Origin: Thermanaerothrix daxensis
Lineage (GTDB): Bacteria > Chloroflexota > Anaerolineae > Anaerolineales > Anaerolineaceae
Assembly (NCBI RefSeq): GCF_001306145.1
Contig: NZ_LGKO01000006.1
Span: forward strand, 62,001 to 126,000
DNA length: 64,000 nucleotides
Direction of reading: 5' to 3'
The translations under genes were made by a program, and so were the position numbers. Of this stretch, positions 3,909 to 46,719 are shown one piece after another (positions within the stretch are counted from its first letter, which is position 1; each line of letters starts with the position of its first letter). The notes beneath the pieces are model-generated. The model worked only from the letters and a program-made list of their open reading frames with translations, was not told the DNA's origin and did not search any database.

Positions 3909-4628
3909 CTACCAAATCCCTGGTATCAAACGGTAGCGCACCCGCTCTGCGTATTCGCGATAACCCGCGAGTTCTTTTTGCAGCATGCGGTCTTCCAACG
4001 CCGTGCGGATTATGGTGAGCGTGATGACCACGATAGACGGGATTGCTACCCAATACGAGCTGAAAAAGACCGGCGCCGCAATCCATGCCAATATGCTGCC
4101 TGCGTACCCCGGATGCCTCACCACGCGGTACGGACCAGCACTGACGACAGTGTGGCCACGGTCGGCCTGGATACGGACGTGGGATGAGAAGAACCGGTTG
4201 ACTAGCATCGCCCAGGTGGCAATCATGCTGCCGAGGAACATCGCCCCAAGCGCAATGATCTGGATGAAGTCAGGCAAATCAGGCGTCCAACCGAAACGCT
4301 CGTCCAGCCCGGCGATGATCCAGGAAATTAGCGGCCCATAGATCGCAATCAACGGAACGAGGATCTTGTCCCAAACCTTGATGTCCTCTTTCTTACTGGC
4401 TTCTACACGCTCTCTTGCCAAATCCGGGTTCTTTAGGATGATCAGTGCCCGGCTCAACACAAGCACAAACAGGGTCATGCCTATGTAGGCCCAGCCCTCC
4501 CACCATTGCAGGCGTCCTGCTGACAAGAAAAGCACTCCCAGCATAAAGATGGTGGTGATGAAGAAGCGGATCCCCGCCTGCCATGGAATCCCGGTATTGA
4601 CAGAGGACTTACCTGATTTTGCGCCCAT
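3909..4628 (-). CDS. ICMT-like membrane methyltransferase family protein
   Basis: 239 residues with about five hydrophobic segments (roughly 25-45, 50-68, 92-112, 128-148, 180-205). The C-terminal half carries the isoprenylcysteine carboxyl methyltransferase/PEMT signature: VVSAGPYRVVRHPGYAGSIL near 160-180 and EDRMLQKELAGYREYAERV near the end, which bind S-adenosylmethionine. The substrate cannot be told; bacteria lack prenyl-Cys proteins of the eukaryotic type, so lipid or small-isoprenoid methylation is possible. Base composition is clearly less GC-rich than neighbours, and it sits with another AT-richer gene beside a CRISPR array, suggesting acquisition by transfer. Confidence 0.8.
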   Translation of the reverse strand: MGAKSGKSSVNTGIPWQAGIRFFITTIFMLGVLFLSAGRLQWWEGWAYIGMTLFVLVLSRALIILKNPDLARERVEASKKEDIKVWDKILVPLIAIYGPLISWIIAGLDERFGWTPDLPDFIQIIALGAMFLGSMIATWAMLVNRFFSSHVRIQADRGHTVVSAGPYRVVRHPGYAGSILAWIAAPVFFSSYWVAIPSIVVITLTIIRTALEDRMLQKELAGYREYAERVRYRLIPGIW

Positions 4629-4751
4629 CTCTTTTACTTATTGATTTGTAAGGTTTCAACCAGTCGCCCAACGGCTTGCGCTTCACCAGTGCGAGCGGAG
4701 CGGCGTCAGGTGGAGGTGCGGGTTAACCCGCATAAGGCATGATCAGAACCC

Positions 4752-5531
4752 TTATCTCACCCAAGTTCTGGCTTTTCGATTTGAAGAACTACTGGTCTCG
4801 TACTCAATCTCTCTACTGGCGGGATGGATGTCAAGCTTTGCTTCTTGGTCAAGCAATAAATCGGACAAGCAAACTGCATCTAAAGACCTATTTTGAAGGA
4901 TCGGCAGTACACTTTGAAAATTCTGAACATCTTGTGCTCGAACGTGGAAGAGAACAATATCACCCCCTTGTGCGAAGTACACTTCGCGGTAGTCGGTCAA
5001 ATGACTTGTACTCCAATTCGCAGACCACATAACTACGATAAGATTATTCTCACAGCATACTCTCAAAAAGTTGTAACTTATATCACCATAAGGAGGACGG
5101 GCGAATCTTACATTTGTGGCGGTCCCCAGAACATCTGTTAGGGTTTCTTGCCATTTTTCGAAGTCAATAGTCGACTGCCGTAAATCCATCGTTGATGGCA
5201 TATCATGGTTATAACCATGATAGCCAATCTCGTGACCCTTAATGAGAAATCGTTTCCATATGCAAGGATCTTTTAACGAGGTTTGAATTAGCGCAATTCC
5301 TGTCGGAAAAAATGTAACCTTGACATTCGGGTGATCATCAAGAAAGTTTTCCATACAACTAAGCAGGGCGTAGTCATAACAATCATCGAACGTCAGAGAA
5401 ACTGCTCGCATGTTCCTTTTACCATACCACACTATTGGGGGGCAGGTGAGATTCAGTAAAGGTTTAACAAAGGGATAACCAATGATCGAGAACATCAACT
5501 TTAAAAAAGATCGGCGTGATATATTCGACAT
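4752..5531 (-). CDS. Polysaccharide deacetylase (NodB fold) with Tat-type signal
   Basis: 259 residues. The N terminus has a twin-arginine motif (SRRSFLKL, residues 5-12) followed by a hydrophobic stretch, indicating export in folded form, consistent with tatA/tatC at 20.7-21.7 kb. The NodB core shows the metal/acid motif LTFDDCYD (about 47-54), the zinc motif HGYNH (about 108-112) and RPPYGD (about 151). These enzymes remove N-acetyl groups from cell-wall or extracellular glycans. The C-terminal 40 residues are polar and may be a tail. The gene is notably AT-rich compared with its surroundings and is probably transferred. Confidence 0.85.
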   Translation of the reverse strand: MSNISRRSFLKLMFSIIGYPFVKPLLNLTCPPIVWYGKRNMRAVSLTFDDCYDYALLSCMENFLDDHPNVKVTFFPTGIALIQTSLKDPCIWKRFLIKGHEIGYHGYNHDMPSTMDLRQSTIDFEKWQETLTDVLGTATNVRFARPPYGDISYNFLRVCCENNLIVVMWSANWSTSHLTDYREVYFAQGGDIVLFHVRAQDVQNFQSVLPILQNRSLDAVCLSDLLLDQEAKLDIHPASREIEYETSSSSNRKARTWVR

Positions 5532-5999
5532 ACTGCACTCACTTATGAAAAAGGGCTAATTACTTACTTGAACCATTACACTTTTACGCATCATCACTCC
5601 TAGATAGCAAGGTCATTATCTAAAATTTGAAATATCCAACCACCTGCGCAGCCTTTCTACGATAGAGTATATACCACCCCCTTTTTAGAGACAACCATTT
5701 TCAACACCCCATCACCCTTCCTAAAAATCGCGAAAACGACCCGCTCCGCCGCGGAAAGTGCTGTGCCTGAAGCTCTCCTCTGCCCCCTATCTTCTCCGTC
5801 GTTTGTCGTCCATTTCGATGATCTTGCCGATGACGATCATAGTGATCATGGCAATCCAAAGAACACAACCCTCCCCCATCCCAGCCTCCTATTTGCGAGT
5901 GATTTTGCTTTCAAGAATCTATCTACGATCTCTCGGCACACTCTATCGCACCAGATGTTGTGCTGGGAGGCTGGAACGCCATTCTTGTGACCACCCATT
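5532..5999. other. AT-richer non-coding region left of CRISPR array 1
   Basis: No gene is supported. It lies at the leader-distal end of array 1. Two overlapping frames over 5758-6090 have no recognisable family and run into the repeats, so they are not called. Confidence 0.5.
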
Positions 6000-6847
6000 A
6001 TTTCAGTATCCACTAACGGATCGAGGGGATTGCAACAATTGGAGCAGCTATTTGAGTTTTTGTCCCCATCCGAATTTCAGTATCCACTAACGGATCGAGG
6101 GGATTGCAACATTGACCAGGTATATCTATCGATGGGAGTGTATTCGCGTTTCAGTATCCACTAACGGATCGAGGGGGTTGCAACTTGGCAGAACATACGC
6201 GCCACCCTAAAATCGTATTTCGAGTTTCAGTATCCACTAACGGATCGAGGGGGTTGCAACGCCCCCGCCAATCCACCACCACGTAGGTTGGTAGATATTT
6301 CAGTATCCACTAACGGATCGAGGGGGTTGCAACTTTGCCAGCGACTTTGACACGGCTTTCGGGTACGGCAATTTCAGTATCCACTAACGGATCGAGGGGG
6401 TTGCAACTCGGATTATTCAACTTGAATTATCCGACGACTTGGAGTATTTCAGTATCCACTAACGGATCGAGGGGGTTGCAACGATTGGTACCGGGACGAA
6501 GCCCATGCCCGGATTGAGATTTCAGTATCCACTAACGGATCGAGGGGGTTGCAACCTCCAGTCCCAGGCGCGCGAAATGTGCATGTAATGCAATTTCAGT
6601 ATCCACTAACGGATCGAGGGGGTTGCAACACCCGCCGCGGATTAATTCCGATTATGTTAAATAATATTTCAGTATCCACTAACGGATCGAGGGGGTTGCA
6701 ACTACCGAAGTAGTAGCCCAGGACCAACAAAAATCCGTATTTCAGTATCCACTAACGGATCGAGGGGGTTGCAACCTTCTTACTAAATAATACCCAAATA
6801 TGCCGAAATAATTTCAGTATCCACTAACGGATCGAGGGGGTTGCAAC
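6000..6847 (-). CRISPR. CRISPR array 1: 12 repeats of 37 bases, 11 spacers
   Basis: Repeats end (plus-strand coordinates) at 6036, 6110, 6184, 6260, 6333, 6407, 6482, 6555, 6629, 6702, 6775 and 6847. Read on the minus strand the repeat begins GTTGCAACCCCC and ends GTGGATACTGAAAT (or ...C). Spacers are about 36-41 bases and all different. Minus orientation is preferred: ATCC/GGAT form a small hairpin that leaves exactly an 8-base tag ACTGAAAT; the two leftmost repeats share a G-to-A variant (ending GGGGATTGCAAC on plus), typical of the leader-distal end; and an extended -10 promoter lies just right of the array. No cas gene is within the window. Confidence 0.97.
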
Positions 6848-29999: not shown

Positions 30000-30048
30000 T
30001 CATCCTGCCCCAAGCATAGCGCAGAGGGGCGATTTTGGCAACCTGCAT

Positions 30049-30095
30049 CTTTAACGAGGGTTAAGGGGGGCAAAGGGGCCACCCCCTCGTTAAAG
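30049..30095. repeat. 12-bp perfect inverted repeat upstream of CRISPR array 2
   Basis: CTTTAACGAGGG (30049-30060) and CCCTCGTTAAAG (30084-30095) with a 23-base loop. It lies between the small hypothetical gene and the array 2 promoter. Confidence 0.7.
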
Positions 30096-30156
30096 TGACG
30101 ACTTGACAAAACGGCAAATCTGTGGTGGGCACCCCAAAAAAACCCCGGTGGGGGGC

Positions 30157-30185
30157 TTGCGCGGGTGTACAGAATTCTCTATAAT
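30157..30185 (+). promoter_or_regulatory. Promoter of CRISPR array 2 leader
   Basis: TTGCGC (30157-30162), a 17-base spacer, TATAAT (30180-30185). It reads toward the array; the leader from the expected start (about 30192) to the first repeat is about 300 bases. The nurA promoter has the same TTGCGC -35. Confidence 0.65.
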
Positions 30186-30296
30186 AAGAGCAGTGCAGTT
30201 CCACCGCACCTTAACAAGTGCATAGGGCGGAAAGAACGAGAGCCCATCCACGCGGTAGCGGGCGCCGCGCGAGGGGCATATTGTGAAAGATTTCAC

Positions 30297-30360
30297 TTTT
30301 GCGTACCCCCCCTCGAAAATGAGCCGAAAACGGGCCCGAACGGGAGGGGGGTACGCAAAA
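30297..30360 (+). repeat. Long near-perfect hairpin in the array 2 leader
   Basis: Left arm TTTTGCGTACCCCCCCTC (30297-30314) and right arm GAGGGGGGTACGCAAAA (30344-30360) pair over 17 bp with one C bulge; loop 29 bases. A weaker pair, AGTGGGAG (30411-30418)/CTCCCACT (30466-30473), follows. These are not terminators (no T-run after the right arm). Confidence 0.7.
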
Positions 30361-30495
30361 ATCGGCGTGGGGTAGAAAGGGTGCATCAAACGGCCGAAAT
30401 TACCCCCTCGAGTGGGAGGAAAAGCGCTGTTTTGCCCCCCAAAAACGCTCGAAAGTGCGAATTTTCTCCCACTTTCAATTGTCTAGATGTCTGCA

Positions 30496-33204
30496 GTCTG
30501 AATCATCAAATGCCCGTAAGGGCATTAAGACTAAGGTTCTAGATTGCGCACCGCCTACGCCAATATGATAAGTCTGAATCATCAAATGCCCGTAAGGGCA
30601 TTAAGACGTACAACCTGAAACCTTCTTTAGCCAGAATGAGCTACGTGCGTCTGAATCATCAAATGCCCGTAAGGGCATTAAGACGGAACACAAAGTTAAA
30701 CTAATAGTAGTGCGTCATGTTTTATGTCTGAATCATCAAATGCCCGTAAGGGCATTAAGACCAGCGAAGGTAATGCTTTCAACGGCATCGGCAATGGTTA
30801 GTCTGAATCATCAAATGCCCGTAAGGGCATTAAGACGTACGAATTTTCATGATACACCTCACTTTGTTTTTTTTGTCTGAATCATCAAATGCCCGTAAGG
30901 GCATTAAGACATCTGCGCTATCAAATAGCAATTGCTCACTTATTCTAAATAGTCTGAATCATCAAATGCCCGTAAGGGCATTAAGACCGGAAAGCACGCG
31001 CAACGCCAGCCCGGAGGCGAAGCGCGTCTGAATCATCAAATGCCCGTAAGGGCATTAAGACATATTCAGGGCATGGCGGAATTCGTGGAAGGATTTCCAG
31101 GCGGTCTGAATCATCAAATGCCCGTAAGGGCATTAAGACAGGACAGAGTAATATTCTTCAACGCGACCGTCTGGCCATACGGTCTGAATCATCAAATGCC
31201 CGTAAGGGCATTAAGACAGGTGTAGCAGCATGATTGTGATCGATGGCCTAACCTATAAGTCTGAATCATCAAATGCCCGTAAGGGCATTAAGACTCTCCC
31301 TCTTCATTTCCTCAATGGCCTTCTCGAGCTCGTTTAGCCAGTCTGAATCATCAAATGCCCGTAAGGGCATTAAGACCTTCGTACCCTCTCCGCTTGCACG
31401 CTCTGGCAAACGATAGAGCGTCTGAATCATCAAATGCCCGTAAGGGCATTAAGACGTTCCTCGCGCCATTTGCTGATGTCTGCTATCGGCAACCACCAGG
31501 TCTGAATCATCAAATGCCCGTAAGGGCATTAAGACTAAAACTTCCATTCGACTTCATACCCTCTACGACGGCATTCATCGTCTGAATCATCAAATGCCCG
31601 TAAGGGCATTAAGACCTTGCGGATCTCGGCATCGAACAGCAGATACAGCAAAATGTCTGAATCATCAAATGCCCGTAAGGGCATTAAGACTTGGGGAATT
31701 CATTTCCATCCTCATCCTCCCCCCACGGGGTGATAGGTCTGAATCATCAAATGCCCGTAAGGGCATTAAGACCTATTATGTAGGTGCCGGCGCGGGAGCG
31801 CCGAGAAAAAAGTCTGAATCATCAAATGCCCGTAAGGGCATTAAGACAAAAACTCTGATTCGTCTGCTCCGATCTCAACCAGAGTTAAAGTCTGAATCAT
31901 CAAATGCCCGTAAGGGCATTAAGACGTTTCGTAGTTGAACCCCAGTGCCTCGCGCGCCTCTTGCTTGTCTGAATCATCAAATGCCCGTAAGGGCATTAAG
32001 ACCGAAAACAAAATTAACAAAGTGCCCCGAGCCTGTACGCCATTTTGTCTGAATCATCAAATGCCCGTAAGGGCATTAAGACGCCGGCCTTAAGGAACAC
32101 ACTGAACTCATGGAAATTGTTAAGTCTGAATCATCAAATGCCCGTAAGGGCATTAAGACACGGTTGTAAATTCAAATTCGCTTGTGGTCATGGTTACACC
32201 GTCTGAATCATCAAATGCCCGTAAGGGCATTAAGACCATCACCCTTCCGCGCATCGCGTCGAGAAACTCAGCTTGGTCTGAATCATCAAATGCCCGTAAG
32301 GGCATTAAGACCCCCATTCCTCGTACTCGCCCCGATAGCGCGCGTCGGGGTCTGAATCATCAAATGCCCGTAAGGGCATTAAGACGGACATCTAATGACC
32401 ATCCACCCCGCCTTGTCAGTCCGAGTCTGAATCATCAAATGCCCGTAAGGGCATTAAGACCAAATTCACCCCCGCACTCACATATGAGCAGTGTATGTCT
32501 GAATCATCAAATGCCCGTAAGGGCATTAAGACTCAGCGAGGCGGGCTTCAGGGAACTCACGAGCAAATAATGTCTGAATCATCAAATGCCCGTAAGGGCA
32601 TTAAGACCAACCTTTACGGTCTTGACCTTCAACATTTTGGCACGAATAGGTCTGAATCATCAAATGCCCGTAAGGGCATTAAGACCCACGTGCTGCGCGT
32701 ACTCAACCGCGGCCTCCGGATCGGTCTGAATCATCAAATGCCCGTAAGGGCATTAAGACACTGTGGCAGCGTGAATGCCTACGCCATCCTTCACGCTGTG
32801 TCTGAATCATCAAATGCCCGTAAGGGCATTAAGACCAAGTCGCGAACGCCGCCCTCGACGATGCGGTCTAGGAGTCTGAATCATCAAATGCCCGTAAGGG
32901 CATTAAGACATGATTGCGACCAACTGCCGGCCGCTCCCCATCCTGCGTCTGAATCATCAAATGCCCGTAAGGGCATTAAGACTGCGTTGGGTATTCGAAC
33001 TCACCTCCCGCACCGCACCTCTGTCTGAATCATCAAATGCCCGTAAGGGCATTAAGACTTTCACGGCCTGGTGCCAGGCGGCATAAGCGTTCATACTTGT
33101 CTGAATCATCAAATGCCCGTAAGGGCATTAAGACCTTGTGTCTCAATCCACACATCACCAAATGTCTTGCTGATCTGTCTGAATCATCAAATGCCCGTAA
33201 GGGC
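30496..33204 (+). CRISPR. CRISPR array 2: 35 full 36-base repeats plus one truncated repeat
   Basis: The repeat starts GTCTGAATCATCAA, continues ATGCCCGTAAGGGCAT (6-bp hairpin with GTAA loop) and ends TAAGAC. First repeat 30496-30531, last full repeat 33099-33134; a truncated one of 28 bases lies at 33177-33204. Spacers are about 37-46 bases, all different. Full repeats are identical. Plus orientation is supported by the hairpin position (cleavage at its base leaves the 8-base tag ATTAAGAC), the truncated repeat at the right end, and a promoter and leader at the left. The repeat is unrelated to array 1. No cas genes lie nearby. Short open frames over the array are artefacts of the repeat. Confidence 0.98.
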
Positions 33205-38232: not shown

Positions 38233-38892
38233 ATGTTCATCGCCATTGAAGGAGTCATCGGCGTCGGCAAAACCACCCTGGCGCGCCTGCTTCAGCCGCG
38301 CTTCAACGCCAATCTGCTGCTGGAGGCCTTCGAGGAAAACCCCTTCCTGGCGCGCTTCTACGCCGACCGCGCCCGCTACGCCTTCCAGACCCAGGTGTTC
38401 TTCCTGCTCAGCCGCTACCACCAGTTCCGCCAGGCCGCCGAGTGGCTGAGCACCGGCCTGCCCCTGATCAGCGACTACACCTTCGAGAAGGATAAACTGT
38501 TCGCCCGCCTCAACCTGAGCGGCGATGAGTGGGAGGTGTACCTGCGCCTGCACGAGGCCCTGGCCGAGAAGATGCTCCCCCCCGATCTCATCGTTTACCT
38601 GCGCGCCGACACCGAAACCCTGATGCGGCGCATTGCCCTGCGCGATCGCCCCTACGAGCGCAACATGGACCGCGATTACATCGAGGCGCTCAACCGCGCT
38701 TACGACGCCCAGTTCCTGCCCCCGCGCCAGGGGCCGCCCGTGCTGGTGATTGACAGCGCCGACCTGGATTTTGTGCAGTACGAGGCCGATCTCGATACCA
38801 TCGAAGCCGCCATCCGCCGCGCCCTGCGCCTGCCGCCCTATCAGCCCGAACTGCCCCTGGAATCCCCCCTTTCCCACCCTGCTTCTGACTGA
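38233..38892 (+). CDS. Deoxynucleoside kinase (dGK/dAK-like)
   Basis: 219 residues. P-loop IAIEGVIGVGKTTLAR (about 3-18), LLLEAFEENPFLARFYAD (about 28-45, acidic substrate contacts), YTFEKDKLFA (D/ERS-region equivalent, about 82-91) and the lid RIALRDRPYERNMD (about 133-146) are characteristic of salvage kinases that phosphorylate purine or pyrimidine deoxynucleosides. Strong GAGGAG precedes the ATG, and TGGTATATT (extended -10) lies about 58 bases upstream. Followed after 11 bases by a nucleotidyltransferase gene. Confidence 0.92.
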   Translation: MFIAIEGVIGVGKTTLARLLQPRFNANLLLEAFEENPFLARFYADRARYAFQTQVFFLLSRYHQFRQAAEWLSTGLPLISDYTFEKDKLFARLNLSGDEWEVYLRLHEALAEKMLPPDLIVYLRADTETLMRRIALRDRPYERNMDRDYIEALNRAYDAQFLPPRQGPPVLVIDSADLDFVQYEADLDTIEAAIRRALRLPPYQPELPLESPLSHPASD

Positions 38893-38903
38893 CGGAATGA
38901 CCT

Positions 38904-39911
38904 ATGCGCATTACCCGCGAGATGTTGCTCAACCTGGCCCGTGAGACGGCCGAACGGACCGCCCGCCGGCAGCGCGATGTGGTCTGCATCTTCCTCATCG
39001 GCTCCCTGCTGGATGAAGAGCCCCTGCTGGGCGGCAGCGGCGATATTGACCTGGTCGTCGTTCACGATGTCGAGCCGCCGGCCCCGCGTGAGGTCCAGCG
39101 CCTGAGCGATGAGATCACCCTGGATGTGGCCCACCTGGGCGTTGCGGCGTTTCAGCCGGCACGCCGCCTGCGCCACGACCCCTGGCTGGGCGCGGCCCTG
39201 TGGGGCAACCCGCTGGTGCTGTACGACCGCCAGCACTGGTTCGAATTCACCCAGGCCAGCGGCACCGCCCAGTTTAACCTGGCCGAGAACGTCTACGCCC
39301 GCGCTCAGAGCCTGGCCCAGGCCGCCCGCGCGAAGTGGCGCGATCTGAGCGAGAGCGCCCCCGCGCCGCTGGCCGCCGCCTGGGGCCTGCTGGATGCCCT
39401 GACCCAGGCGGCCAATGCCATCGCCTGCCTCAGCGGCGCCCCCCTGACCGAACGGCGCTTTGTGCTGAACTTCCCCGCCCGCGCGCAGGCCGTGGCCCGT
39501 CCTGGCCTGGCCGCCGGCCTGACCGACCTCATCGGCGGGGAGAGCGCCGCGCGCGAGGGCCTGCACACCTGGAAAACGGCCTGGCTGGAGGCGCTGGAGG
39601 CCGTAGCCCGGCACCCGGATGCCCCGCCGCGCCTGAGCGCCGCCCGCCGCGCCTACTACCAGCGCCCGGTTGAGGCCCTGGCCGCAGACCAGCCCCTGGC
39701 CGCCTGGTGGCTCCAGTGGCGCACCTGGACGCGCGCGCTGGTGCACCTGGGGCAGGATTCGCCCCTCTTTGCCCCATGGCAGGAAGCCGGCGAGGCGCTC
39801 GGCCTGGGCATGAGCCACCTGCCGCGGCAACTGGCCGCGCTGGATGCCTACCTGGATACGGTCGAAGAAACGCTGGATCAGTGGGCCAGCGACCACGGCG
39901 CCCGCATCTGA
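38904..39911 (+). CDS. Pol-beta-superfamily nucleotidyltransferase domain protein
   Basis: 335 residues. The N-terminal domain has IFLIGSLLDEEPLLGGSGDIDLVVVHD (about 29-55): the G-S and later D-x-D metal site of the nucleotidyltransferase fold, with an acidic insertion between. A third Asp may be in EITLDVAHL (about 71). The remaining 230 residues are alpha-helical and unassigned. Possible roles are nucleotidylation of a protein, RNA or antibiotic; no partner HEPN antitoxin-like gene is adjacent. It is probably co-transcribed with the kinase. Confidence 0.72.
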   Translation: MRITREMLLNLARETAERTARRQRDVVCIFLIGSLLDEEPLLGGSGDIDLVVVHDVEPPAPREVQRLSDEITLDVAHLGVAAFQPARRLRHDPWLGAALWGNPLVLYDRQHWFEFTQASGTAQFNLAENVYARAQSLAQAARAKWRDLSESAPAPLAAAWGLLDALTQAANAIACLSGAPLTERRFVLNFPARAQAVARPGLAAGLTDLIGGESAAREGLHTWKTAWLEALEAVARHPDAPPRLSAARRAYYQRPVEALAADQPLAAWWLQWRTWTRALVHLGQDSPLFAPWQEAGEALGLGMSHLPRQLAALDAYLDTVEETLDQWASDHGARI

Positions 39912-40040: not shown

Positions 40041-40645
40041 TGTGGATAACCGGGTTAAAACTGTGGATAAGCGGGGATACCTGTGGAAAACCGGCCGATT
40101 TTGGGGAAAATCCCCGCCCCGGCCAAATGCCCCTTACCCCCCATATGTGGGGGGCGGTCGGCGCTCCGCACCACATCCCCGCGTTAATGACTCTACGCAA
40201 TTCCACCGCCTGCGGAGAGGGCAAAACGGAGGCCGGTTTATCCGTTTTTCATCCACAGTCGGCTGGGGATAAACAATGCCCCTTTGACCGCACGGGTGGA
40301 GCCCCTTGCACTGCACCACGCCAGGGATGGGGACAGGGGCACACTTATCCACATATCCCCAGGCCCTACGACGGCTACGAAATTATTAACTCACTTATGA
40401 ACATGAATAAAGAATGGGGAGAAACAAACGCAGGGTGTGGTGGATAACACGCCCCGGGGCCCAAAAACGCCGATCCGGCCGTTGGAAGCGGGAGATGTAT
40501 GGGGGAAGAGGGGAGGCAGGGAAACGGTGCATTAAAGCGCCACAGGCCGGGGTGAGGGGGGCACCTCGGCCTGTGGCAACTCTTATTATACATAAAAAAA
40601 TTTAAACTTGCATTAAAAATAAAAGCAGAAAAATTTCAATTTTGT
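40041..40645. other. Candidate chromosomal replication origin (oriC)
   Basis: An 860-base intergenic region holds a cluster of DnaA boxes. Perfect TTATCCACA or complement: 40041-40049, 40062-40070, 40345-40353. One mismatch: 40082-40090 (TGTGGAAAA), 40249-40257 (TCATCCACA), 40264-40272 (TGGGGATAA), 40439-40447 (GGTGGATAA). An 11-bp hairpin GCCACAGGCCG/CGGCCTGTGGC (40539-40549 and 40567-40577) separates the boxes from an almost pure A/T stretch at 40580-40645, a good unwinding element in this GC-rich genome. Genes to the left are mainly minus and immediately to the right plus, as expected for bidirectional forks. parS sites and dnaN lie 10-14 kb away. No dnaA gene is in the window. Confidence 0.78.
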
Positions 40646-40707
40646 CTGACAAGTATGTGGCTATGGAGTATAAAGTCAAAAATGCATTACTGTCTCAATT
40701 TGTCATA

Positions 40708-40778
40708 TTTCATTATGATCCAAATGGGTTTGAACCTTATTGCAATTCATTTCTGATAATGTCATAATGAAATTATCA
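40708..40778 (+). promoter_or_regulatory. Promoter and operator-like repeats of the PTS operon
   Basis: TTGCAA (40740-40745), a 17-base spacer, CATAAT (40763-40768) places the start about 3 bases before the ATG at 40778, with no Shine-Dalgarno. Two overlapping inverted repeats surround it: TTTCATTATGA (40708-40718)/TCATAATGAAA (40762-40772), and TGATAAT (40754-40760)/ATTATCA (40772-40778). They are candidate sites for the PRD regulator or a host factor. Confidence 0.55.
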
Positions 40779-42352
40779 TGACCCGGCTAGATGCTCTACA
40801 GGTCTCGACCTTACTCGCCTTGCTGGATGCCGAACACCCTCTTTCGGCGCAGCGCCTAGGGGAGCGTTTGGGCATTTCAGCCCGCACCTTGCGCTATCGG
40901 TTGCCGCTGTTGCAAACCTGGCTATCCCGATATGGGGTTGAATTGGTAGCAAAGCCCCGCCAGGGATTGCAACTGAATGCACCGGTCGAAATTCGACAGC
41001 GCCTGCGGGTTGAGTTGCAACAAGGGGACTGCCTGCCTGTACTGCGCGGCAACGAACGTGCCACTTATATTCTGTTCCTGGTCTTAGTGGCACGGGAAAA
41101 ACTCACGCTTGAAATAGTACGTCAGCGATTAGGCGTCTCACGGGCCACGTTATTGCGCGATTTGCGAGCCATGGAATCGCGCTTGAATGAGAAAGGTTTG
41201 CTTCTCAGGCGTTCACGTCGGCAAGGGTTGCAAATTTTCGGCCCAGAAGCAGTCCAGCGGCATCTGATAATCGAGATGTTGCTGCATGCCGGTTTGGATG
41301 AGGCCCTAACTGAACTCAGCCTGCGCGGCAAGGTTGACCTGACCACATACGCCGCGTTTCAACGGCTCCTGCTGGCAGAGGTGAAAGAATGGAATCTATC
41401 CGTAGCGCGCCGTTTCGTGGCTCGGTTAGAGCGCGAAATGGAGCTGACGCTAATGGATGATGATTTACTGTTCCTGACGCTGTATTGGGCGCTGGCGCTT
41501 CAACGAATTCAGCGTCAGCGGCTGGTCTCCCCTTTGGAGCGAACGGCAGAAGTCATCCTCTCGGCGCAAGAGGTGGCCCGAGTTGAAGCGTTGGTGAAAA
41601 CTTTCTCGGCTGCCCATGGTACGCCAATTCCTCGTGACGAAGTGATTCAGCTGGTGGTGGAAATAAAAGCCTGTCAGGGGCAATTGACCCTGGCAACATC
41701 AACAAAAGTCGCTTCCGAGACCGATCTCAGTCGGTTGGTGGCTGAGCAGATGCTAAAAAGGGTGGGAGAACGACTGGGATACAACTTGTGCCAACCAGAT
41801 ATTCTCAATCAGATGGCCATGCACCTTGCACGAACCCTTACTCGCCTGCAGGCAGGACTACCCCTGTACAATCCACTCACTCAGGAAGTGCAACAAGCCT
41901 ACGCGCATCTCTGGCAACCTTCCATGGAGGTCGTTCAGCAATTCAAGATGCAATTTGATTTGACCATTCCCGCCGAGGAGGTGGCTTACTTGGTCATGTA
42001 CTTGGCGTTAGCGGTGCAACTGGCGGAGCAGAGTCAGAAGCCACGCTTTCGCGTTTTAGTGGCCTGCCCAACCGGGGGCGTCATGGCGCGGTTATTGGTG
42101 TATCGTTTGCAAAATGCATTCCCGGAAATTGAAATAGTAGATACCCTATCTCTGCGCCAGTTATCCCGCCTGGATGGACTGGCAGTAGATCTGGTCATCT
42201 CAACGGTGAAGATACCGGCAGGGCGGTGGCCGGTGCTCACGGTAAATCCTTTGCTGGGAGAGGAGGATATTCAACGCATCAAAGCGCAACTTAATGTCAT
42301 TCACTCTCGACGTATATTAACCGCACAAAAGGAGCATGAGGTATGCCGGTGA
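40778..42352 (+). CDS. PRD-containing PTS operon regulator (BglG/MtlR-type)
   Basis: 524 residues. Two N-terminal winged-helix units (about 5-60, LSAQRLGERLGISARTLRYRL; about 95-145, LTLEIVRQRLGVSRATLLRDL) bind DNA. Two PRDs follow (about 180-285 and 305-400), though the usual phospho-His positions are not all obvious. An EIIB(Gat)-like domain (about 422-500, RFRVLVACPTGGVMARLL; Cys in ACPTGG) ends the protein; no EIIA domain is present, unlike long MtlR proteins. It should activate the downstream galactitol-type PTS genes according to phosphorylation state. The stop overlaps the IIB gene by 10 bases. Confidence 0.87.
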   Translation: MTRLDALQVSTLLALLDAEHPLSAQRLGERLGISARTLRYRLPLLQTWLSRYGVELVAKPRQGLQLNAPVEIRQRLRVELQQGDCLPVLRGNERATYILFLVLVAREKLTLEIVRQRLGVSRATLLRDLRAMESRLNEKGLLLRRSRRQGLQIFGPEAVQRHLIIEMLLHAGLDEALTELSLRGKVDLTTYAAFQRLLLAEVKEWNLSVARRFVARLEREMELTLMDDDLLFLTLYWALALQRIQRQRLVSPLERTAEVILSAQEVARVEALVKTFSAAHGTPIPRDEVIQLVVEIKACQGQLTLATSTKVASETDLSRLVAEQMLKRVGERLGYNLCQPDILNQMAMHLARTLTRLQAGLPLYNPLTQEVQQAYAHLWQPSMEVVQQFKMQFDLTIPAEEVAYLVMYLALAVQLAEQSQKPRFRVLVACPTGGVMARLLVYRLQNAFPEIEIVDTLSLRQLSRLDGLAVDLVISTVKIPAGRWPVLTVNPLLGEEDIQRIKAQLNVIHSRRILTAQKEHEVCR

Positions 42353-42639
42353 AGCGTATTATCGTAGCGTGTGGTTCTGGGGTGGCCACATCGAATGTGG
42401 CGGCAGAAAAACTGCGCAACCTGCTCCGCGAACAAGGCTATCACAACGTGGATGTGCGAGCGGTGGATATCAAAAGCCTGGAGGCGGAGGCCAAAGTCGC
42501 CGATTTGCTTGTTTCCATCACCCCTTATGCCATCCGGGATAAGGAGTTGCCTATTCCTTCTATCAACGGCATTCCTTTGCTCACCGGAGTTGGTACGGCA
42601 GATGTGATCCAACAAATCAAACAGATTCTCAAACTGTAA
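42343..42639 (+). CDS. gatB: PTS galactitol-type IIB component
   Basis: 98 residues. The active Cys lies in KRIIVACGSGVATSNVAAEKL (Cys10 in the P-loop-like C-x-x-G-x-x-T/S motif), and the rest (VDIKSLEAEAKVADLLVSITPYAI) is the GatB/SgaB fold. It takes phosphate from EIIA and passes it to the sugar bound by IIC. GGAG lies upstream within the end of the regulator gene. The exact sugar is uncertain: galactitol, arabitol or a related polyol. Confidence 0.9.
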   Translation: MPVKRIIVACGSGVATSNVAAEKLRNLLREQGYHNVDVRAVDIKSLEAEAKVADLLVSITPYAIRDKELPIPSINGIPLLTGVGTADVIQQIKQILKL

Positions 42640-42806
42640 TTTCATCTCTGCCCATCTGAGATCTCAACCAAAGTCCGGATTCGACACCCCTGGAGAGAGG
42701 AGGTGAGGTAGTTTTTTGCCTGTAGCAGCCCTGAATCATCCCCCTTCCATCGGTAAACCTGTAACCAAACCGTTTTAGTTCCCCCCAAGGAAAGGAGTTA
42801 GGAAAA

Positions 42807-44264
42807 ATGCAAGCCGCATTAGATACCATCCGTAGTTTTTTGGATTACGGCCCCAATGTTGCCCTACCGGTGATCATGTTTTTGCTGTGCTTGGTCCTGG
42901 GCATGCGGGTTGGAAAAGCCATTGGCGCCGGTTTGATGCTGGGTGTGGCATTTACCGGCATTTTCGTATTGTTTGACTTCGCCTTCCCGGTTCTCGGAAA
43001 GGCGGGGCAAGCCATGGTGCAGCGCATCCCCGGGCTGAAATTCGAGGCCTACGACATGGGATGGACGGTTGCCTCGGTAATTTCGTGGGCCTGGCCCTAT
43101 GCTTTCCTGATGTTCCCCGTCCAGATTACCATTAATATCGTTATGTTGGCACTGGGGTGGACTAAGTGCCTCAATGTGGATATGTGGAACGTATGGCATA
43201 AGGCCACGCTGGGTGCGTTTGTCTCCGCTCTGGTAGGGCAGAGCCTGCCCGGGCTGGCCTTACCGTTGGGCTTCCTGGTCGCCGGCATCTGGGTGGTGCT
43301 GGAACTTATCAGCGCCGATCACACCCGCGAGCAGGTGTACAACCTGACCCGCATTCCGGGCATTGCTGTTTCCCACAATATGTTGTTGGATATTATGTGG
43401 ATGGCGCCCGTCCTGGATCTGATCGAGAAAATCCCCGGACTGGGAAAGATCAAAACCAGCCCTGCCGACCTACGCCGCCGGATCGGGGTTTTCGGAGAAA
43501 ACTACGTCATCGGGGCTATCTTGGGACTGATCTTTGGGCTGTTGGCAGGCTATGACTTTAAGGGGATCGCAACGCTGATGATCCAATGTGCTGCTATTGT
43601 GACCCTTTTCCCCCTGCTGGCGGGCCTGTTTGCGCGGGCTTTGGCACCGGTCGCCGAGGGCGCGCAGGAGTTTATGCAGAAGCGATTCCCCGGGCGCAGC
43701 TTCTACATCGGCTTGGATTGGCCGGTGTTGGCCGGCATTGACTCGCTATGGGTGACGGGCATTCTCATCGCTCCGCTGATCTTGCTCTTTGCCATCCTCC
43801 TTCCCTTCAACAAAACCCTTCCTTTCGCCAGTATTATTGCCGTTTCGCTGGTGGCTACCGTCACAGTGCTCACTCAAGGGGATCTGGTGAAATCACTCTT
43901 GCTCTCCATCATCGGTATTCCGGTTTACCTGGGAGCGGCAACTTACTTCGCTCCTTACCTGACCAACCTAGCCGTGGCAACAGGAGCAATTCAAGTTCCC
44001 GAAGGGTTCGGCATGGTTACATGGCTGGAGACCAATGCGGCGGGGATGCGTTTGCTCGTCTTTACCATCCTCGATATGCTCAATGGGAATATAGTGGCCG
44101 GTCTCATTGCGCTGGTCATCCTGGCATTCTGTGTCTGGTACTACTTCCCGGCGATGAAGCGTCGTGAGAATGCAGCGGCTCAGCAGAGCGGTGGCATTTC
44201 GGGCAATCCATTGCCCTATCCTGAAGCCGCACCGAAGGCGGCCGAATCCGCCTCTGCCGATTAG
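42807..44264 (+). CDS. gatC: PTS galactitol-family IIC permease
   Basis: 485 residues, about twelve membrane segments. Galactitol-type IIC pattern: LDYGPNVALPVIMFLLCLVLG (about 13-33), GLMLGVAFTGIFVLFDF, AYDMGWTVASVISWAWPYAF, and WNVWHKATLGAFVSAL. The C terminus is a polar tail. It imports the polyol while IIB phosphorylates it. A 167-base gap separates it from gatB (AGGAGG at 42700-42705 without an ORF; the gene's own AAAGGAG is at 42790-42796). A 14-bp hairpin follows the stop codon. Confidence 0.92.
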   Translation: MQAALDTIRSFLDYGPNVALPVIMFLLCLVLGMRVGKAIGAGLMLGVAFTGIFVLFDFAFPVLGKAGQAMVQRIPGLKFEAYDMGWTVASVISWAWPYAFLMFPVQITINIVMLALGWTKCLNVDMWNVWHKATLGAFVSALVGQSLPGLALPLGFLVAGIWVVLELISADHTREQVYNLTRIPGIAVSHNMLLDIMWMAPVLDLIEKIPGLGKIKTSPADLRRRIGVFGENYVIGAILGLIFGLLAGYDFKGIATLMIQCAAIVTLFPLLAGLFARALAPVAEGAQEFMQKRFPGRSFYIGLDWPVLAGIDSLWVTGILIAPLILLFAILLPFNKTLPFASIIAVSLVATVTVLTQGDLVKSLLLSIIGIPVYLGAATYFAPYLTNLAVATGAIQVPEGFGMVTWLETNAAGMRLLVFTILDMLNGNIVAGLIALVILAFCVWYYFPAMKRRENAAAQQSGGISGNPLPYPEAAPKAAESASAD

Positions 44265-44271
44265 CCTCCCC

Positions 44272-44308
44272 GGGCTCCCGGTAGAACGGTTGGCTCTACC
44301 GGGAGCCC
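44272..44308 (+). repeat. Perfect 14-bp intercistronic hairpin in the PTS operon
   Basis: GGGCTCCCGGTAGA (44272-44285) and TCTACCGGGAGCCC (44295-44308), loop 9 bases, no T-run after it. It starts 8 bases after the gatC stop and ends 20 bases before the kinase start. Likely mRNA stabiliser or partial terminator that lowers expression of the distal genes. Confidence 0.75.
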
Positions 44309-44327
44309 CGTCAATATGGAGTTGCTC

Positions 44328-45263
44328 ATGATTCTCACGGTCACCTTTCATCCTGCACTGGATCGAATTTTAGCCGCCCACCAGTTGCGCCCAGATGCGG
44401 TAAACCGCGTGCAGGTGGTGCGTGAATACGGGGGCGGGAAAGGAAACAATGTGGCGCGGGCACTCCATCGCCTGGGAGCCCCCGTACTGGCATTTGGGTT
44501 TCAAGGAGGCTGGACGGGGCGAATTGCCCGCCGGGCTTTCAAGCGTGAGGGGGTCCCCACCCAGTTTGTGAGCTGTCGCGCATCCACGCGCATTTCCACT
44601 TTACTGATAGAGAATGCGACAGGTCATGGGTATACCCTGTACGAGCCGGGACAGGCGGTCAGCGAAAAGGAAATGCGGAAACTCAAGGCCCAGTTTTTGC
44701 AACTGATCGGCGGTTTTCAGATAGCGCTCTTTTGTGGCTCAGCCCAGAGCCCTGCGTTGGCCCGTTTGCTGGCTGATATGATTAGTGAGGCCAAGCAGCG
44801 AGGGGTTGTGTGCGTGCTGGATAGTTCGGGTCAGGCATTACGGGAAGGCATCCAGGCTCAGCCGTTTATGGTTAAAGTCAATCGTGAGGAGCTGGAGGAG
44901 TGGCTGGGCGAAACCCTGGAGACCCCGGCTCAATTGATTGAAGCCCTCTTGCGGGTGCATCGTCTGGGTATTGCGCTGGTGGCCGTCACCCAGGGGGAGG
45001 ATGGGCTTATGGTCACCGATGGAAAAACCCTCTGGCAGGGTTCATTGAAAATGAACACCGTGATCAATGTAATGGGATGTGGGGATTCGCTGCTTGCTGG
45101 GATGACCTACGCGTTGATGAACGGACTGCGCCTGCCGGAGATCGTTCGCTGGGGAGTGGCGTGTGGAGCCGCAAACACCCAGGTACTCGGGGCTGGTTTC
45201 ATTCACCGGGCGGATGTTGAGGCGTTACTCCCCCAGGTACAGTTGACCCACATCGAACTTTAG
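44328..45263 (+). CDS. PfkB-family sugar-phosphate kinase (tagatose-6-P/1-phosphofructokinase-like)
   Basis: About 311 residues from ATG 44328 (MILTVTFHPALDR), chosen over ATG 44316 because GGAG lies seven bases before it. LacC/FruK features: GGGKGNNVARALHRLGAPVLAFGF (substrate loop, about 38-61), TRISTLLIE, CGSAQSPALARLLADM, NREELEEWLG, and the C-terminal anion hole MGCGDSLLAGMTYAL (about 245-259; catalytic Asp in GCGD, with Cys in place of the usual Ala). It would phosphorylate the imported sugar phosphate at C1, giving a bisphosphate for an aldolase. Confidence 0.87.
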   Translation: MILTVTFHPALDRILAAHQLRPDAVNRVQVVREYGGGKGNNVARALHRLGAPVLAFGFQGGWTGRIARRAFKREGVPTQFVSCRASTRISTLLIENATGHGYTLYEPGQAVSEKEMRKLKAQFLQLIGGFQIALFCGSAQSPALARLLADMISEAKQRGVVCVLDSSGQALREGIQAQPFMVKVNREELEEWLGETLETPAQLIEALLRVHRLGIALVAVTQGEDGLMVTDGKTLWQGSLKMNTVINVMGCGDSLLAGMTYALMNGLRLPEIVRWGVACGAANTQVLGAGFIHRADVEALLPQVQLTHIEL

Positions 45264-45283
45264 GAAAAGAAAGGCGCTTTATC

Positions 45284-45889
45284 ATGGAACTTGCGTATTT
45301 TGAGTTGCGTCAACGCATTGCCGAGATCGGTGCGCTGATGTACGCGCGCCACCTGACCGATTCGGCAGGGGGCAATATCAGCCTGCGCGTGGACGAAGTG
45401 ATCCTGATGACACCGCGTTATGCAGGCAGCAAGTATTTATGGCGACTGCGTCCCGAGCAGATTCTGGTGCTTGACCTGGCCGGCAATCGCCTGGAGGGCG
45501 AAGGAGAGGTATCTCGTGAGGTGCGTGTGCACCTGAAATTATTGAATGAGTTTTACCCCATCGGCACGGCAGTCGTTCACGGCCATGCCCGTAATGCCCT
45601 GGTCTTTTGCAGTCTTAACCGACCTATACCCTCCATGCTTTATGCAACCGACAAGTTTGGGGAGATTGGCCTGGTGGAAGATGCGCCGGCCCACACCCAA
45701 GAACTGGCCGATGCCATCGGCGCGGCGATGGCGGAGCAGTTAGAGCGGGTGCGTAAGCAGGCAGCCGCAGTACTGGCCCCACGGCATGGGGTTTTTGTCT
45801 TTGCACGTGATTTGGAATCTGGATACGATGCCTTGGAACGTATAGATGTAAGCGCCTATTGCGCTCTAATGGCGCGATTAATTCATTGA
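45284..45889 (+). CDS. Class II aldolase (AraD/FucA family)
   Basis: 201 residues. SAGGNISLRVDEVILMTP (about 27-44) and AVVHGHARNALVFC (about 94-107, zinc His pair) plus the later RHGVFVFARDL give the L-fuculose/L-ribulose phosphate aldolase-epimerase fold. The E-V-R-V-H segment offers the catalytic Glu. It probably cleaves the ketose phosphate made by the preceding enzymes. It replaces GatY/GatZ, the usual tagatose-bisphosphate aldolase, which is absent, so the imported sugar may not be galactitol. Confidence 0.85.
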   Translation: MELAYFELRQRIAEIGALMYARHLTDSAGGNISLRVDEVILMTPRYAGSKYLWRLRPEQILVLDLAGNRLEGEGEVSREVRVHLKLLNEFYPIGTAVVHGHARNALVFCSLNRPIPSMLYATDKFGEIGLVEDAPAHTQELADAIGAAMAEQLERVRKQAAAVLAPRHGVFVFARDLESGYDALERIDVSAYCALMARLIH

Positions 45890-45906
45890 AGCCCCAGGGG
45901 GAATCT

Positions 45907-46719
45907 ATGATGGATCAAGATGTGAGCATTCCACTCTCCGAAGACTTGGTCTTACTTAATCTAGAGGCTCACCATTTCCAAGAGGTTATCCAGAGGATGG
46001 CGGACCATCTTCTGACCCATGGCTATGTCAAATCTACCTACCCTCAGGCTGTCCTGAAACGGGAGCAGCAATTTCCCACCGCGTTGCCGACTCCTATCCC
46101 GGTAAGCTTTCCACATACAGATGTGAGCCATTGTCTGCGTCCTGCCATTGCCGTGGGGGTACTACGTCATCCGGTTAAGTTTGGTTTTATGGGGGATCCT
46201 ACGCAGCAACTGGATGTGCGGGTGGTGTTCATGCTCTCGGTGACCCGTCCAGAGTATCAGGTCAAGACTCTGCAAAAACTGATTGATTTATGCCAGGAGG
46301 CGGAGAACATTGAGCGCATTTTGAACGCCTCAGTAGCGCGTGAGGTGGTGAAGGTGCTGAGCGCCCTCTTCGAGCCCGCCACCTCAACGACTGTGGAGGC
46401 GTCCGAGGAGACCGGTGCTAACTCCTGGGCGCGTAGGGAGGCGGTCATTCGCCATCCGGTGGGGTTGCATGCGCGCCCGGCCGCGCTCTTCGTCAAGACG
46501 GCGGCTAAGTATCCCTGTGAAATCCAGGTGGCGCGAGCCGATCAGCCAGATCGACGTGTCAGCGCCAAGAGCATTCTGAGCGTGCTGGGTTTGGGAATCA
46601 AGGCGGGGGAGCGTATTATCATTGAGACACGGGGTGAGCAGCATGACGCTGCTTTACGTGCATTGATGGGGTTGATCGAAAGTAATTTCGGCGAGGAGGA
46701 AAATGCCAGTCATGAGTGA
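45907..46719 (+). CDS. PTS EIIA-HPr fusion protein
   Basis: About 270 residues from ATG 45907. Residues 1-150 are an EIIA of the fructose/mannitol/galactitol type (HHFQEVIQRMADHLL, REQQFPTALPTPIPVSFPHTDVSH; the PHTD histidine is phosphorylated). Residues 180-270 are a complete HPr: AVIRHPVGLHARPAALFVKTA with the catalytic His in GLHARP, and SAKSILSVLGLGIKAGE where the Ser matches the regulatory Ser46. One polypeptide therefore carries phosphate from enzyme I to IIB. Enzyme I is not encoded in the window. Frame could start upstream at 45859 inside the aldolase gene, but ATG 45907 follows CAGGGGGAA. Confidence 0.92.
   Translation: MMDQDVSIPLSEDLVLLNLEAHHFQEVIQRMADHLLTHGYVKSTYPQAVLKREQQFPTALPTPIPVSFPHTDVSHCLRPAIAVGVLRHPVKFGFMGDPTQQLDVRVVFMLSVTRPEYQVKTLQKLIDLCQEAENIERILNASVAREVVKVLSALFEPATSTTVEASEETGANSWARREAVIRHPVGLHARPAALFVKTAAKYPCEIQVARADQPDRRVSAKSILSVLGLGIKAGERIIIETRGEQHDAALRALMGLIESNFGEEENASHE

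Follow-up and report, generated by a model that had tools for sequence, protein, structure and literature searches.

Where replication starts in the chromosome of Thermanaerothrix daxensis is a question raised by a cluster of DnaA boxes far from dnaA, with a nucleotidyltransferase-like gene on one side and a PTS operon on the other. We studied this cluster within a window of 64,000 nucleotides, i.e., the whole stretch of DNA that was analysed, which corresponds to C4:62,001-126,000 in a genome of 3,012,066 bp and six contigs (C4 and the like denote contigs). Positions given without a contig are those of the window. The features of the locus are:

38233-38892, forward strand: deoxynucleoside kinase gene (dNK), the conserved left neighbour (Pfam dNK, 1.2e-36)
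38904-39911, forward strand: nucleotidyltransferase-like gene directly left of the proposed origin (NTase-like motif recognised by eye)
40041-40049, reverse strand: DnaA box 1, exact; invariant in the 10-sequence alignment A2
40062-40070, reverse strand: DnaA box 2, exact, at 21 bp pitch; in alignment A2
40082-40090, reverse strand: DnaA box 3, TTTTCCACA, one mismatch, at 20 bp pitch; in alignment A2
40137-40154, no strand: palindrome CCCCCCATATGTGGGGGG (core 40139-40152), a candidate NrdR box lying 98 bp away from box 1
40169-40182, no strand: palindrome partner at +30 bp, 7 of 14 positions matching, weak in this genome
40249-40257, forward strand: DnaA box, TCATCCACA, one mismatch
40264-40272, reverse strand: DnaA box, TTATCCCCA, one mismatch
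40345-40353, forward strand: DnaA box, exact, first of a tandem pair adjoining the proposed melting site; in alignment A2
40353-40361, forward strand: second tandem box, ATATCCCCA, two mismatches; tandem partner conserved
40366-40380, forward strand: degenerate DnaA-trio-like array CTA CGA CGG CTA CGA
40381-40414, no strand: AT-rich stretch directly after the array, 34 bp, 21% GC, proposed unwinding site; the skew minimum (40394) lies inside
40439-40447, reverse strand: DnaA box, TTATCCACC, one mismatch
40539-40577, forward strand: GC-rich hairpin, terminator-like
40578-40777, no strand: AT-rich block that more probably forms the region upstream of the PRD/PTS operon
40778-42352, forward strand: PRD-domain PTS regulator, the right neighbour (Pfam PRD, HTH_11, Mga)

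The exact DnaA box TTATCCACA occurs three times at this locus, and together with four one-mismatch copies all seven boxes lie inside 40041-40447 (407 bp), as a preliminary description of this DNA had reported. In the window, 11 matches with at most one mismatch were found compared to 5.63 expected from shuffled sequences. Seven of the 11 fall into the cluster, and the Poisson chance of at least seven boxes in 415 bp is 1.7e-14. Genome-wide there are 29 exact boxes, versus 10 for the backwards-read pattern as a control, and nowhere else do three of them come as close as the three within ~310 bp at the cluster. The densest 500 bp elsewhere, among 39 sampled stretches of 17-20 kb each, holds three boxes with at most one mismatch. 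The boxes are thus clustered beyond chance in non-coding DNA, and three tested mechanical ORFs overlapping the region had no match in Pfam. The other landmarks of the preliminary description were also recovered: its GC hairpin corresponds to the terminator-like stem, its AT-rich stretch to 30-35% GC at 40561-40800, and its neighbours to the nucleotidyltransferase gene (named by motif only) and the PTS operon.

The cumulative GC skew of the window reaches its minimum at 40,394, within the box cluster. Beyond the window, the 39 sampled stretches cover 26% of the genome. On contig C4, both stretches to the left were negative and both to the right positive (one weakly, +0.019), and the other sampled contigs showed one sign each: positive on C1 (20/20) and C2 (9/9), negative on C3 (4/4) and C5 (2/2). 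Single 5-kb bins depart from the skew sign of their contig. Taken together, the 39 stretches fit a single origin at the cluster, and replication arms of ~1.56 Mb (right part of C4 plus C1) and ~1.45 Mb (left part of C4 plus C5, C2 and C3), with the contig order inferred, would fit as well. The dnaA gene is located at C1:187,915-188,388, at least ~290 kb from the cluster (C4:102041) whatever the order of the contigs, so that the adjacent dnaA of a dnaA-linked origin is missing here. The 20 kb around dnaA have positive skew (+0.058), with neither a skew switch nor a box cluster, and in the window and the 39 stretches the switch from negative to positive occurs at the cluster and at none of the rival sites. 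Because the boxes exceed chance, the skew switches inside the cluster and the distant dnaA has neither switch nor cluster, identification as oriC is strongly supported, and we put at about 0.93 the probability that this Anaerolineaceae-type bacterium has its chromosomal replication origin at 40,041 to ~40,450. The preliminary description had proposed a chromosomal origin, which GC skew, box density and conservation now support; the two results that it named as contrary, a skew switch elsewhere and a denser box cluster at dnaA, were both absent from the sampled part of the genome.

Base composition varies along this genome in two further respects. In the sampled stretches, GC content is ~0.66 near the origin on C4 and has dropped to 0.49 by the far end of C1, a strong origin-to-terminus gradient. 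Within the window, two 2-kb stretches (4001-6000 and 30001-32000) have ~48% GC amid ~65% GC.

Comparison with relatives showed that the place of the cluster is conserved. We collected loci titled Anaerolineaceae, genera of that family, or only Anaerolineae/Chloroflexi (hereafter named loci); 66 contain the nucleotidyltransferase gene, and three of these are too short downstream, leaving 63 testable. Three or more boxes lie no farther than 500 bp from the end of this gene in 56 of the 63 (median six), compared to none of 1,052 background windows. Among the remaining seven, boxes were found within 5 kb in four and upstream in one, and two had none. Two same-strand boxes at 20-22 bp pitch occur in 56 of 61 named loci (61 of the 66 were used; an inverted cluster, L129, went unscored). 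Based on tblastn, the 66 named loci encode a dNK homologue in 60 cases, SpoVS in 25 (the family assignment was confirmed for L111) and DnaA in none, the loci being 3.4-21 kb long. A homologue of the nucleotidyltransferase-like protein was detected in 53 of 61 genomes searched, our own included; the protein itself had no match in Pfam, NCBIfam or PDB, although its gene stands beside the origin in most relatives. The same-genus relative of the window, an 'uncultured Thermanaerothrix' MAG (L104), has a homologue of the PRD regulator at the same place with 76% identity. This regulator and its PTS operon (40778-46719; ~53-57% GC in 2-kb windows to 46 kb) stand where other relatives have spoVS. The preliminary description was right that dnaA is elsewhere, but the origin is not peculiarly displaced in this genome, since its place is the usual one among relatives (56/63).

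The complete chromosome of Pelolinea submarina permits a closer look. Among 20 stretches, two of them near zero, skew changes from negative to positive at 326.75 kb, which coincides with the box cluster, and back from positive to negative between 2.02 and 2.15 Mb. At its dnaA (base 737) no skew switch was seen, both sides being negative. The public record of this chromosome (NZ_AP018437.1; L131/L174) is numbered from dnaA, ~326 kb from the skew switch and the cluster. Other relatives are less uniform, and the local skew minimum is no more than 1 kb away from the cluster in only 29 of the 65 named loci with boxes. In a second complete chromosome (G018), skew switches at the nucleotidyltransferase gene, but few consensus boxes are found there. 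In Longilinea arvoryzae, the switch is ~20 kb from the box cluster (L195-L196, G031:C1:657561-697560), perhaps due to a recent inversion or insertion. Skew is weak in three genomes of family f12 (G047, G271 and G170) and likewise gives no clear call in G057.

The dnaA locus itself was considered as an origin and rejected: besides the absence of a skew switch, a cluster of at least three boxes was found at only one of 30 dnaA loci cut out. This single case is Ornatilinea (L102/L226), in which four boxes lie upstream of dnaA (L226:13158-13297) in a stretch without a skew switch (-0.076), and the usual cluster after the nucleotidyltransferase gene is also present. A second cluster away from the usual place, four exact boxes at G047:C1:150326-150559, was rejected as an origin, the conserved signature of that genome being at 505.5 kb; these boxes are possibly a DnaA reservoir.

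Such cases raise the alternative that the cluster in our window is itself a datA-like DnaA reservoir or a DnaA-regulated promoter, with replication starting elsewhere, for example at dnaA. Box clusters are indeed known away from origins, as the example of G047 illustrates. However, skew switches inside the cluster and not at dnaA both here and in Pelolinea submarina, and the element of tandem boxes, trios and AT-rich DNA is conserved together with its place; we regard this explanation as very improbable. Even less credence is due to the idea that the skew minimum merely reflects gene strand bias or a recent inversion, for which the weak or shifted skew in f12 and Longilinea could be quoted. 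Against this speak the uniform skew sign of each contig on a given side of the locus throughout the sampled stretches, the chromosome-wide GC gradient, and Pelolinea, where the switch occurs at the same place and the opposite one about half a chromosome away.

If the locus is an origin, it should contain a site of unwinding. The preliminary description had assigned melting to the AT-rich block at 40,580-40,645, and this part of it did not hold. In favour of melting in the block (40,580-40,777), no AT-rich stretch in the vicinity is longer, the block is situated past the last box, and the trio-like array of this genome is degenerate. However, in L104 the low-GC stretch immediately precedes the PRD regulator, with ~700 bp separating it from the boxes; the block thus precedes the PRD gene in both genomes at very different distances from the boxes and goes with this gene, for which reason we rejected it as the melting site and consider an origin that opens there improbable. 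It also contains a promoter-like site (40740-40768, forward strand; a consensus match only). Instead, we propose 40,345-40,414 as the conserved melting-site candidate, with its tandem boxes, trio-like array and adjoining AT-rich element, whose unwinding is predicted. In alignment A2, boxes at 21/20 bp pitch are followed by the palindrome in most of the 10 sequences and then by the tandem boxes and CTAC. The latter combination is present in 50 of 78 loci, and in all 50 the CTAC array leads into a short AT-rich stretch. In these loci, trios two to five have the expected middle base in 80, 68, 76 and 48% of cases; because the loci were selected by CTAC, trio one and the C of trio two are fixed by construction. 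The published order of the basal unwinding system is box, spacer and trios (PMC8287927). Its strict pattern (box, spacer of at most 16 bp, at least three successive NAN) is present in relatives such as L116 and L131, and the array of our genome lacks three successive NAN.

Between the triple box and the middle boxes lies a palindrome that connects the origin to two other loci. In 37 genomes of the family, CCCCATATATGGGG with at most one mismatch has 66 sites, carried by 29 genomes, compared to eight sites for the backwards-read control. Twenty sites are upstream of nrdR (at most 0.6 kb), 15 upstream of dnaA (at most 1.5 kb upstream of a DnaA-domain match), 16 at the origin (-3 to +5 kb of the nucleotidyltransferase gene end) and 15 elsewhere, so that 51 of 66 belong to one of the three places. 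Counted by genome, the site is found at nrdR in 19, at dnaA in 15 and at the origin in 14 of the 37, and the three palindromes of the T. daxensis genome are at the origin, dnaA and nrdR. At the origin, 18 of 56 named loci have a palindrome with at most two mismatches at a distance of 96-98 bp from box 1 (none of 2,696 background windows), and four further loci have it at 87, 109, 149 and 160 bp. As only these 18 loci have it near +97 bp, the origin palindrome is not general in the family. A whole-genome search for a box, 86-90 bp and the palindrome retrieved 51 of 400 genomes of the order, with one occurrence each (0/400 for the control); 15 belong to family f1 and 36 to f12, and they represent 12 of 130 genera. 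Both f12 dnaA promoters examined carry the palindrome with one mismatch.

NrdR is the dATP-sensing repressor of ribonucleotide reductase. The core CCATATGTGG fits the published core pattern of NrdR boxes, C.[AT].A[AT].[AT].G, and the same site stands upstream of nrdR (20/66 palindromes, 19/37 genomes). In our genome, nrdR (TIGR00244) is followed by an 862-aa ribonucleotide-reductase-like ORF, which we read from its sequence as class II. Published NrdR sites are pairs of boxes three helical turns apart that are bound when ATP and dATP are loaded, as described in PMC12051234. For nrdR, the mean match profile for a partner box peaks at -31 (17 sites at 16 loci; 4.6 sd), and for the origin it peaks at +30 (22 rows, 4.4 sd higher than at other offsets), although these values are not formal tests since the peaks were picked among all offsets. 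The origin profile comprised the window and L104-L131, two rows (the second site of L121, and L129) being second palindromes. At dnaA promoters (16 of 21 loci; five lack a palindrome with at most two mismatches), the partner peaks at +32/33 and -39/-41 are less clear. The strict published pair with a 14-17 bp spacer was detected in seven of 63 origin regions versus 10 of 1,066 background windows. At the Pseudomonas aeruginosa topA gene, NrdR is described to act through a single box (PMC4409342); according to PMC4898720, there are species in which the nrdR gene is clustered with dnaA, dnaB, dnaI or polA.

From these patterns, NrdR probably binds the palindrome. Since the shared palindrome fits the NrdR-box pattern, NrdR may also bind oriC and the dnaA promoter, and we lean, with modest conviction, towards the more far-reaching proposal that in two families of one Anaerolineae order a single palindrome is the binding site of NrdR at the origin, at the dnaA promoter and at the reductase operon alike. 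A possible but unlikely alternative is that the palindrome serves another regulator or the promoter of a neighbour such as spoVS, unrelated to initiation: spoVS is downstream in 25 of 66 named and eight of 11 f12 loci, the strict NrdR pair is rare, with a weak partner in our window, and NrdR binding is predicted only. Yet the distance between palindrome and box is kept in the window and L104, where a PRD gene replaces spoVS, the same site recurs at nrdR and dnaA, and an nrdR-type -10 element is absent from all 61 origin regions whereas 15 of 16 nrdR promoters have it. In the literature covered (titles, abstracts and some passages, with few subscription papers), NrdR was not described at an origin; dnaA may have been predicted as a target before. 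No origin of Anaerolineaceae or Anaerolinea was reported among the matches listed.

The NrdR reading and the origin can be compared with known systems. Tandem boxes, a short spacer, AT-rich DNA behind a trio-like array and an array that starts with CTA (3'-GAT-5' on the other strand) are shared with origins of the Bacillus subtilis type as described in PMC8287927; unlike these, the present locus is not beside dnaA and its array is degenerate. As in Escherichia coli, oriC and dnaA are far apart (PMC8287927), but the recurring neighbours are dNK, the nucleotidyltransferase gene and often spoVS, and a triple box with 21/20 pitch and a candidate NrdR site inside is present. With NrdR boxes of reductase operons (as described in PMC12051234 and PMC12176259) the palindrome shares the core pattern, a second, weaker box ~30-33 bp away in the mean profile, and its position ahead of nrdR and a ribonucleotide reductase gene; it differs in C/G runs at the outer bases and in also occurring at dnaA and inside oriC. 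The topA case (PMC4409342) likewise involves a single box at a replication-related gene, here as a candidate only, but it concerns a promoter and not also an origin.

Other Anaerolineae families provide hints on how this arrangement may have evolved. In a survey of triple boxes (30 of 55 matches examined, 10 of the 30 without any of six query proteins), six loci from families f59, f67, f24 and f38 (L234, L235, L255, L257, L262 and L263) have the same triple box at 21/20 pitch, but directly downstream of dnaA and without the palindrome at up to one mismatch. In family f4 (G039), a box cluster is located upstream of dnaA and the nucleotidyltransferase gene beyond the other end of dnaA. In view of these dnaA-linked triple boxes and the f4 arrangement, dnaA linkage may be ancestral, and the separation and the palindrome derived. 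A genome of the same genus as G039 (G052) has no box cluster at this place, and in G040 (f5) dNK, the nucleotidyltransferase gene and spoVS are present with dnaA ~10 kb off, the gap being free of boxes with at most one mismatch. That the nucleotidyltransferase gene was merely left behind when dnaA moved is unsupported, given the layout in G039 and the lack of a cluster in G052.

Under the proposed mechanism, DnaA would be supplied in trans from the dnaA gene at least ~290 kb away, load first on the three same-strand boxes (21/20 bp pitch) and the middle boxes, and afterwards occupy the tandem boxes at 40,345-40,361. From there, a filament would extend across the trio-like array and unwind the AT-rich stretch at 40,381-40,414, with bidirectional replication from the origin, as the skew indicates. 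dATP-loaded NrdR would be positioned between the two groups of boxes, where kinking of DNA, a known property of this protein (PMC12051234), could block or help the orisome: either the orisome would be blocked at high dATP, or an IHF-like bending of the origin would license initiation. The same dATP signal would lower expression of dnaA and the reductase.

Overall, our analysis assigns the origin in a little-studied bacterial group to a conserved locus, and at least one public record, that of Pelolinea submarina, is numbered from dnaA instead. If the NrdR reading is true, initiation, initiator supply and dNTP synthesis would answer to one dATP/ATP signal, and the dNTP pool would be wired directly to the start of replication. 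The long-standing question of how initiation is matched to nucleotide supply would then become testable with one protein and three DNA fragments.
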